This document shows, one piece after another, positions 15,126 to 17,718 of a DNA stretch of 64,000 nt. The stretch is from Candidatus Bathyarchaeota archaeon (GTDB lineage Archaea; Thermoproteota; Bathyarchaeia; Bathyarchaeales; Bathycorpusculaceae). The translations under genes were made by a program, and so were the position numbers. Location: positions 1,054,001-1,118,000 of the forward strand of contig JAOZHT010000001.1 in the NCBI GenBank assembly GCA_026014735.1, read 5' to 3'. How positions within the stretch are numbered: position 1 is the stretch's first letter; every line of letters begins with the position of its first letter. The notes beneath the pieces are model-generated. The model ran no database searches. It had not been told where the DNA came from and was given only the letters and a program-made list of their open reading frames with translations.

Positions 15126-15144
15126 GCAGCTTGAATTAGGCTAC

Positions 15145-15954
15145 TTAGGTGATGTTTGCGTTGATTTCGCTCCAAACCTGTGGGCTTTTTGTCTTGATGT
15201 ATTCTATGATTTTGTCTATGCGTGTTCCCATGTTAACCTGATACGCTGGAATCCCCTGATACATCAGAGGTTCTGGGGTATCCATGAAGCATTTATGTAA
15301 AGCAATCGCCTGCCAATCATCGTTGAAAACAGGGGAACCCGACGAGCCAAACAACGTATCACTGTAGTAGAGCAGATCACTCTCTTCGAGTCTACAGGCG
15401 GAGTTGTTGCGCAGGCTAATCATTTGCTTGCCGCCTTCAGGATGCTGGATAATGTTTACCGCAATCTGTTTTTGTGAAGAATGTAGCTTCAGATATGTGG
15501 GGTTGAGCGTCAAGGGGCTGCGGAAGGGCTGGGCTAACTTTAGTATAGCAAAGTCAAGATCGGGATCTGAACCGCATTCGCAAAAAGTCTGCAGAGAATC
15601 AACCGTTAACTTCTTGCCCTCACTTAGAGGCGGATTATAATCAAATTGCACTATTGCATGTTTAGCTTGCAGCGCCAAGTCTTCAATGGAGGCGTTTTTT
15701 TCACCGTCTTCACGTGCATTGATCACGTGGTGGTTAGTGATTATGTGTTGCCGACCAATCAGCCATCCAGTTCCATAGTAGGGCAGTGGTGTCTGTACTG
15801 GCAAACCATGCTCATATCTAAAAACGGATATACGTGCAACTGAGTTGCTTGCGTTGCACCCGATTTCCAGCCAAGATTTGGGCACCAGATCGTTTTCATT
15901 AATCACTGCCATGCAGTGGACGGGTTCTCTATCTATCTTTTCTTGCTTATCCAT
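15145..15954 (-). CDS. Trypsin-like serine protease (S1 fold)
   Basis: 269 residues without a signal peptide, so probably cytoplasmic. The catalytic triad is visible: His76 in IITNHHV, Asp134 in DLDFAILKL and Ser205 in FGSSGSPVF. The fold resembles V8/HtrA-like proteases without a PDZ domain. The ATG overlaps the end of the coiled-coil gene by 22 nt and is preceded by GGGAGG with 9 nt spacing, so translation is coupled. The pairing suggests that the coiled-coil protein is substrate or partner; this is inference. Confidence 0.85.
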   Translation of the reverse strand: MDKQEKIDREPVHCMAVINENDLVPKSWLEIGCNASNSVARISVFRYEHGLPVQTPLPYYGTGWLIGRQHIITNHHVINAREDGEKNASIEDLALQAKHAIVQFDYNPPLSEGKKLTVDSLQTFCECGSDPDLDFAILKLAQPFRSPLTLNPTYLKLHSSQKQIAVNIIQHPEGGKQMISLRNNSACRLEESDLLYYSDTLFGSSGSPVFNDDWQAIALHKCFMDTPEPLMYQGIPAYQVNMGTRIDKIIEYIKTKSPQVWSEINANIT

Positions 15955-17501
15955 CCGAGAAATCCTCCCTTATCAGAGTTGGGGGCATTTTGAGCTGGCG
16001 GATCAGTGGGAGTTGGAGTTTGTAAAGTGGCGGTTATGATGCGGTTTAATGTGGGTTTCTCGTCATCTTTTCCGTACCCTAATTTAAAATTCATGTTGAC
16101 AAGCTCACTGCAGGATCCCGCAGCCTCTACTTCCCCAGTTATCTTAGCCAGAACAAACGCTAAAACTATACCACTTATGTAAGAGGTGTCGCCGCCACCG
16201 ATGCTGAGGGGCTTTTTGATGGTTATGGCTTCCCCGCCTTTAGAGCACACTTTAAGATGCAGCAGATGCGAAATGTGAGATGATCGGATATATTCTCTTA
16301 GCACGGCATCGACAAGCATTGAGGGCTTGTTATCTGTGGAGGCGGTGATGGAGGCAAAGAAGGAGTCGAAGGATTTGAGCAGCGCCTCGGAATCAAGCAC
16401 CGATTTGTTTACGTTTTGGAGGGATTTGTTTAGTTCATTTAAAGCGTTGGTTTTGCTAGTTTTTTCCTGTTTTTTTGAGTCGAGGCTTTTTTGGATGCTT
16501 TCTTTTTCGGTGCCTTCCAATGCTTTTGCTTTTTTAGTGAGTTCTTCGATTTCGGCCTGAAGCTTGGTTATTTCGTCGCCTTTGGCTTTTGCCTCTGCAA
16601 CCTTCGCCTTTAAATTCGCCACGGACATATCCAGCTCCATTTTTAGCTTAAGCAGCTCAGTTAGCTTCGAAACTAGCTCTGAGGTTGTTAGAGAGTTAAA
16701 ATTGCAAACCATAACTTTGCCATTCCATGGTTTACCTGACTCAGTGAGCTCAGAACTGGTTATTTTTCCTGTGATACTTGCGATTAGCGCTTCTTCGTCT
16801 ATGCTGAACTCTTTGCCCTTAACATTGTAATCGCCCTTGAAGAACCGCAGTACATCTGCAGCCACGCTTAACCCTCCTGAAATGAGGCTTGGAATGGCCG
16901 ATAAGACCCCTGCAGCAGCCAGGGCGGTTGCAACTTCACGATGAGGCTTTCCAGTGGGAACCGACGGTTTCTGGGGCTCAGCAGGCATTTCCACGCCGTT
17001 GTTTTTTAGCTGAGCAAGAATGGATGAATTGTAGTTATCCATTAACCCGTCAATTAGTAAAAGCGGGAAGTCACCTTGTGCAAAGTTGAGGTCCTTCACC
17101 ACCAGGATTCTTGGCTCAAAATTCTCTATGCCGGTTAATTCTTTCTCCCTTATTGCATCAGCGATGATTTTCGAGTTTTCCTCAACTAACTTGTAGGCGA
17201 TAAGTTCCGTTGCGTAGCCAAAGTTGGCTGTGGTGGTGATTTCTCCTTCAACACCTGTGCTTTGCCCTTTAGGCAACATTGAGGTTATCTGTGTCTTTTT
17301 TGCTTCACTTAGCGCTATCTGGGCGTCAATCAGTTGCTTTTGCTCTTGAAGCTTGGTTTTTTCCTCTTCCGCCGCTGTACTTTCCTTCATTTTAGCGGCA
17401 AGCGCCTTCTCGGATTCAACCAATTCTGCCGTTGCCTTGTTTAGAGCGATTTTGTTTTGGATTTCCTCTAATTGTTTTTGAGAATCATCCTTACCAGACA
17501 T
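15933..17501 (-). CDS. Coiled-coil protein of unknown function paired with a protease
   Basis: 522 residues. Residues about 1-85 form a charged coiled coil. A mixed domain follows (about 90-190). At about 195-230 lies a strongly hydrophobic Ala/Gly-rich stretch (ALAAAGVLSAIPSLISGG). A second long coiled coil occupies about 285-380. A compact C-terminal domain with Gly-rich loops and a Pro/Thr tail ends it. No known family is recognised. The ATG at 17501 has a GAGG upstream and is preferred over the TTG at 17516. It is the first gene of a two-gene unit with the protease. Confidence 0.7.
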   Translation of the reverse strand: MSGKDDSQKQLEEIQNKIALNKATAELVESEKALAAKMKESTAAEEEKTKLQEQKQLIDAQIALSEAKKTQITSMLPKGQSTGVEGEITTTANFGYATELIAYKLVEENSKIIADAIREKELTGIENFEPRILVVKDLNFAQGDFPLLLIDGLMDNYNSSILAQLKNNGVEMPAEPQKPSVPTGKPHREVATALAAAGVLSAIPSLISGGLSVAADVLRFFKGDYNVKGKEFSIDEEALIASITGKITSSELTESGKPWNGKVMVCNFNSLTTSELVSKLTELLKLKMELDMSVANLKAKVAEAKAKGDEITKLQAEIEELTKKAKALEGTEKESIQKSLDSKKQEKTSKTNALNELNKSLQNVNKSVLDSEALLKSFDSFFASITASTDNKPSMLVDAVLREYIRSSHISHLLHLKVCSKGGEAITIKKPLSIGGGDTSYISGIVLAFVLAKITGEVEAAGSCSELVNMNFKLGYGKDDEKPTLNRIITATLQTPTPTDPPAQNAPNSDKGGFLGWISKKR

Positions 17502-17718
17502 TTTCAAATGCCTCAAATTAGACGGTTTATCTTAATACATGTTAAAGATTATAGGAATTTAAGGTTTGGGCTTGTTTGAAACCTACAATTTTAAGCAAAA
17601 GAAGTCTTAGTTGCGAGCGGGAAACGACTGCTAAGGGCAGTGTGTTTTTGAAAATGAAAATATTGATAAACCGCAAAGCGCTAGACTAGAATCAGGACAG
17701 TTTTTTAGGTGAAATATT

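Follow-up and report, generated by a model that had tools for sequence, protein, structure and literature searches.

In bacterial gasdermin (bGSDM)-protease operons, a constant partner is encoded beside caspase-like, trypsin-like or other proteases, and a NACHT gene can lie near (reviewed in PMC9079055 and PMC9612521). In the defence loci described by Tuck et al. (2025, PMC12799240), those of gated nuclease-protease pairs and Canu, one conserved partner goes with a trypsin-like protease in some cases and with a caspase in others. The EACC1-caspase systems (System 4 in Kaur et al. 2020, PMC7159879) combine a 5' constant gene, the product of which carries a small-residue-rich hydrophobic segment, with a 3' protease gene. 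The latter study also described the EAD-trypsins of NTPase-linked conflict systems. Here we analyse a pair of genes from an archaeal genome of 2.9 Mb, located in a window of 64,000 nucleotides (the whole stretch of DNA that was analysed). The pair resembles a defence or self-destruct module operated by a protease, apparently of a new kind.

Two coupled genes at a variable site

The pair consists of a partner gene, P0002, and a downstream protease gene, P0001, arranged as follows:

15933..17501, minus strand: P0002, partner gene (ORF with ATG start, 522 aa)
15145..15954, minus strand: P0001, S1 (V8-like) serine protease gene (ORF with ATG start, 269 aa)
15933..15954, minus strand: overlap of the two genes, 22 nt, translational coupling (coordinates of both ORFs)
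15964..15969, minus strand: GGGAGG ribosome-binding site of P0001, within the P0002 gene (sequence; ATG 9 nt on)
approx. 15126..17718, no strand assigned: insertion flanked by the TrpRS and CBS-domain genes (gap of ~80 nt in G018, locus L161, and in G011, locus L162)

An earlier, sequence-only reading of this DNA had described a 522-residue protein whose ORF overlaps that of a protease by 22 nt, with a GGGAGG site ahead of the second gene, and all of these elements were recovered. P0002 and P0001 are real genes in one operon, and neither is a chance ORF, because each has sequence relatives elsewhere. The same reading had placed the pair in isolation between housekeeping genes. The flanking genes are indeed those for TrpRS and a CBS-domain protein, but comparison with relatives revealed that the pair has been inserted at a site of variable content: the spacing from the TrpRS gene to the CBS-domain gene is 2.6 kb in the window versus ~80 nt in the same-genus genomes G018 and G011, and 60 relatives (31 of the same genus and 29 further ones) contain no match to either P0002 or P0001. 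Within the genus, the interval that follows the TrpRS gene (window positions 15126-17718, loci L160-L179) varies in content, being empty in two species and harbouring an MFS transporter or different genes in other genomes. At its edges, the insertion has neither a tRNA nor a long direct repeat nor a recombinase. Its GC content is similar to that of the surrounding DNA, and the gain of the pair is therefore not necessarily recent. As part of the explanation that we consider best, a module of conflict or cell-death type, we give about an even chance to the locus being a horizontally gained two-gene module.

Among 398 genomes of the archaeal phylum, a member of the P0002 family was found in one, that of the window itself, and weak archaeal matches to P0002 were rejected as coiled-coil or chance matches. 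Pattern scans for P0002, both genome-wide and viral, yielded no match, and neither did tblastn of plasmids and phages. Viral motif scans returned a single weak match, in L215, which was rejected as a short phage ORF.

The protease P0001 and its relatives

P0001 matches Trypsin_2 in Pfam (E = 2.2e-17), and AlphaFold2, supplied with 22 sequences, modelled it with confidence (pLDDT 89.6). Foldseek with this model ranked FAM111A, staphylococcal Esp and V8 first, and the list of matches also includes HtrA-type housekeeping proteases. The chymotrypsin fold and the His-Asp-Ser triad that define S1 (Trypsin_2/V8-like) proteases are both present, as are the V8-type pocket residues, with Thr at S-5 and His at S+15. 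The register to V8 was taken from 1qy6, chain residues 153-184 of which correspond to P0001 residues 189-220.

15727..15729, minus strand: codon of catalytic His76 (kept in 66/66 relatives)
15553..15555, minus strand: codon of catalytic Asp134 (kept in 65/66 relatives)
15340..15342, minus strand: codon of catalytic Ser205, in GSSG (kept in 66/66 relatives)
15355..15357, minus strand: codon of Thr200, equivalent of V8 Thr164, S1 pocket (66/66 relatives)
15295..15297, minus strand: codon of His220, equivalent of V8 His184, acidic-P1 recognition (66/66 relatives)

The triad had been called complete from the letters of the window alone, and both its retention among relatives and the Trypsin_2 match bear this out. 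T200 and H220 fall on V8 Thr164 and His184, residues which we take to bind a P1 glutamate and to set the preference for Glu, and cleavage after Glu is therefore predicted for P0001. Overall, P0001 is a cytoplasmic, stand-alone V8-like serine protease that is predicted to cleave after acidic residues.

The nearest relatives of P0001 are encoded on rhizobial plasmids and in Streptomyces, Sphingomonas, Bacteroidota, Acidobacteriota and others, with the best bacterial matches reaching 36-42% identity and typically carrying EAD-sized N-terminal extensions. Those relatives that were checked carry an EAD at the N-terminus, EAD5 or, in a same-family archaeon, EAD8, and their loci lie near VMAP, STAND/NACHT, MoxR or NucA genes, which identifies them as the conflict systems described by Kaur et al. 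(2020). Judged by these matches of its protease domain, P0001 belongs to a clade that is otherwise fused to EAD adaptors. No EAD was found in P0001 itself, and no core NTPase or VMAP gene beside it, its neighbours being the TrpRS and CBS genes. Relatives of P0002 are absent from all 80 bacterial protease loci that we scanned, and a search for P0002 in 32 bacterial genomes carrying protease relatives returned chance matches only.

Some further features were observed around the relatives of P0001. In the same-family archaeon (L029:1525-5525), a small membrane protein is encoded a few genes upstream of the EAD8-trypsin gene and resembles one encoded in a bacterial partner operon (L198, 2845-3318; see below). 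In another archaeon of the phylum (L026:1502-5634), two radical-SAM-like enzymes, which possibly serve peptide maturation, adjoin a protease of this clade that likewise stands alone, and another stand-alone relative is encoded near a C25 (gingipain-like) peptidase gene (L027:4755-7281). The relative in G333 (L028:1-3280) is followed in the same polypeptide by an endonuclease/exonuclease/phosphatase-like region, and the neighbouring gene has an astacin/matrixin-like HEIGHAIGLYHE motif.

The partner family and the proteases beside it

P0002 had been described as unrecognised, and searches of Pfam, NCBIfam, PADLOC, PHROGs and the PDB agree, with no family assigned and only weak matches, mostly to coiled-coil proteins. 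A single-sequence model of P0002 has a mean pLDDT of 41, rising to 73-82 over residues 301-360, and is too poor for a structure search; with low confidence, it predicts long helices at residues 4-75 and 273-386. The two coiled coils of the sequence-only reading rest on these helices and on the weak coiled-coil family matches, and the hydrophobic stretch that it had noted is present. The protein is laid out as a coiled coil, an alpha/beta-like region, the hydrophobic segment, a helical hairpin and a C-terminal GG-motif domain, with the following features:

17277..17492, minus strand: N-terminal long helix/coiled coil, residues 4-75 (single-sequence model, modest confidence)
16878..16934, minus strand: Ala/Gly-rich hydrophobic segment, residues 190-208 (Kyte-Doolittle 1.82)
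16815..16844, minus strand: FFKGDYNVKG motif, residues 220-229 (matches MFRVDYTVKG in L201)
16344..16685, minus strand: helical hairpin/second coiled coil, residues 273-386 (single-sequence model, pLDDT 73-82 at 301-360)
16221..16238, minus strand: GGEAIT motif, residues 422-427 (alignment; shared with L201, GG in 6/6 members)

Several identities were considered for P0002 and rejected. Kinship with SMC/Rad50 or JetC was dismissed since the coiled coil alone matches, and an MBL nuclease since no nuclease domain was detected. Gasdermin identity is rejected by sequence, as neither P0002 nor its relatives have a match in Pfam, NCBIfam or PADLOC, and no gasdermin or other effector signature was found in P0002. 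EACC1 gave no match at E <= 10 for either P0002 or the L201 protein.

The first homologue of P0002 was obtained using a probe for a C-terminal motif that occurs in bacterial proteins without annotation. The probe matched a protein encoded on a Sphingopyxis plasmid (L194), which aligns to P0002 (27% over 94 residues, E = 3e-4), and this match was then checked by alignment, profile and shuffles. A two-sequence profile, run against 160 Sphingomonadaceae genomes, detected a further three members (E from 2e-12 to 1e-7), and a five-row profile detected one member, L201, in 168 genomes of another alphaproteobacterial order (E = 6e-16). The latter protein (L201:300-1640) aligns with P0002 over nearly the full length (E = 1e-38, 29% identity, 456 aligned positions). 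As a control, P0002 and L201 were left out and a profile was built from the Sphingomonadaceae members only, four in all; it found P0002 at 5.8e-6, while the best of 500 shuffles scored 0.078. By these comparisons, P0002 is homologous to the bacterial members. Together they form a small family of six, one archaeal and five bacterial, for which no curated model exists; its rates in the two searched sets were 3/160 and 1/168. The hydrophobic segment is clear in only four of the six, with counterparts scoring 1.57 (L201), 1.66 (L194) and 1.51 (L198), and is weaker in L199 and L200. In addition, the N-termini of the four divergent members (L194, L198, L199 and L200) resemble export signals when judged by eye. 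This branch may therefore function outside the cytoplasm, and the family as a whole in more than one compartment, so that any single mechanism becomes less secure.

A protease gene adjacent to the partner gene, the criterion used for bacterial gasdermins, is found in the window, L201, L194 and L199. While P0002 is paired with an S1 protease, the L201 partner gene is directly followed by a caspase-like gene (Pfam C14, E = 4e-19), the best NCBIfam model for which is 'EACC1-associated type' (E = 4e-28, 98 bits, below the cut-off of 140). The likely start of this caspase gene is at 1675, with a GGAGG site and a 34-nt gap; an earlier ATG would give a 26-nt overlap. In L194, the partner gene overlaps a downstream S8 peptidase gene by 11 nt, and in L199 an M10 matrixin-like gene, encoding a protease with a lipoprotein-like N-terminus, lies ~40 nt downstream. 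L198 has a C70 papain-like gene upstream of the partner, with two genes between. The family thus spans five protease classes. No protease gene was found near the partner in L200. If peptidases make up 2-3% of genes, the probability that three of the five newly found members have an immediate co-directional downstream protease gene by chance is ~2e-4. Since a conserved partner is combined with interchangeable proteases, we conclude that the two are functionally linked in a dedicated manner. The earlier proposal of a protease and partner of conflict type holds in respect of this dedicated pairing, which is seen in the EAD-fused clade of the protease and in the caspase, S8, M10 and C70 neighbours of the partner. 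When the pair was sought elsewhere, as had been suggested, the partner was found beside other proteases, but the exact combination of S1 protease and partner was not seen twice.

In L200 (856-9815), the partner gene has a DUF3732 gene on one side and a SIR2-like gene on the other, surroundings that resemble those of defence genes. A fuller contig of L201, L202 (7.3 kb), has a NACHT-FGE gene after the caspase gene; the contig may be misbinned, and the gene order is given as read. The C-terminus of this caspase and the N-terminus of the NACHT-FGE protein (L202:1675-5831) share a glycine-rich 27-residue motif with 44% identity, GD.N...GGV.I.G.V.GS, possibly a like-to-like or amyloid-type signalling motif. 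Such sharing would be expected if the sensor recruits the protease by like-to-like contact.

These data also bear on two readings other than a self-destruct module. The HtrA-type proteases among the Foldseek matches, together with the four exported-looking partner relatives and the lipoprotein-like N-terminus of the L199 protease, which fit envelope functions, would suit a quality-control or maturation unit without a conflict role, in which the partner is a chaperone-like adaptor or an inhibitor that presents substrates to the protease or restrains it. However, the sporadic distribution, the insertion at a variable site, the exchange of unrelated protease classes and the NACHT-caspase context are not housekeeping patterns, and we consider such a unit improbable. 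Alternatively, the protease could be toxic, with the partner serving as antidote or inhibitor, in line with the tight coupling, by which the partner is made first, and again with the sporadic distribution. A toxin-antitoxin-like pair is nevertheless very improbable, because a single inhibitor is hardly expected to act on proteases with five unrelated folds and because P0002 is large and multi-domain, unlike usual antitoxins.

A proposed mechanism and known systems

We propose that P0002 and P0001 form a protease-partner module of conflict or cell-death type in which the partner is both substrate and executioner, a reading in which our confidence and our doubt are about equal, and which we favour because the partner is kept while the protease class changes, as in gasdermins and gated nucleases. 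P0002, with its long helices, hydrophobic segment and conserved C-terminal domain, would be the constant upstream partner, and P0001 the downstream, translationally coupled cytoplasmic V8-like protease, predicted to cut after acidic residues. The two proteins would be made in a fixed ratio and associate. Upon triggering, P0001 would cleave P0002, and the partner, now released or rearranged, would act on the cell and lead to its arrest or death, with multimerisation or an effect on the membrane as the most plausible routes. In the related loci, the same partner would be driven by other protease classes, one of which appears to be placed under a NACHT sensor; no recognisable sensor was found for the window pair. 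Against a module of this type stand the small size of the family, with only six members detected at low rates, the absence of an adjacent protease in L200, the exported appearance of the four divergent members and the weakness of the hydrophobic segment in L199 and L200. More tentatively, and with doubt prevailing, P0002 may be the founding member of a new, non-gasdermin class of protease-activated cell-death executioners that occurs in archaea and bacteria, works with at least five unrelated protease classes and is sometimes NACHT-sensed.

The partner could instead act as a sensor or scaffold whose helices multimerise on a stimulus and gather proteases, with the protease as the effector that cuts host or invader proteins. 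The same logic has been proposed for EACC1-caspase systems, in which, as here, the partner corresponds to the 5' constant gene and the protease to the 3' variable gene (PMC7159879); moreover, it is the EACC1-associated type that the L201 caspase resembles most, and the trypsin domain of protease-HamA is activated by oligomerisation (PMC12799240). On the other hand, the place of the sensor in L202 is already occupied by the NACHT protein, and no ligand-binding domain was recognised in P0002. We regard a sensor or scaffold role, the main rival to our reading, as rather unlikely.

If the module reading is true, the protease-operated immune repertoire gains a family of executioners or scaffolds for which no curated model exists, and a minimal form of it, with just two genes, is present in an archaeon, in a domain of life for which little is known of these systems. 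The family would also allow us to ask whether one conserved protein responds to different protease classes.

Compared with bGSDM operons, the loci described here show the same constant partner beside varied proteases, including a nearby NACHT gene in L202, whereas P0002 is longer, has long helices, is unrelated in sequence to any curated family and lacks a gasdermin match. The exchange between trypsin-like and caspase proteases is likewise shared with the gated nuclease pairs, yet their partner is an MBL-fold pro-nuclease while P0002 shows no nuclease domain, and their trypsin, which forms a fusion with a defence enzyme, cleaves after Ile while P0001 is stand-alone with a V8-type pocket. With EACC1-caspase systems the pair has the gene order in common. 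As a possible counterpart of their single TM helix with a patch of small residues, P0002 has one hydrophobic segment rich in Ala and Gly (KD 1.8), which two relatives show in weaker form. Unlike there, P0002 is far larger and does not match EACC1, the protease class varies and the window protease has no fused effector domains. Finally, the EAD5/EAD8-trypsins of VMAP/iSTAND and NucA-trypsin systems resemble P0001 in a protease domain that is 32-44% identical, with the same pocket residues, but P0001 lacks an EAD and neighbouring NTPase core genes. In our assessment, the pair would work like the known protease-gated conflict modules while being, by the comparisons made here, a member of none, and if the module reading is true it suggests, beside gasdermins and gated nucleases, a third type of partner in modules that join a protease to a dedicated partner.
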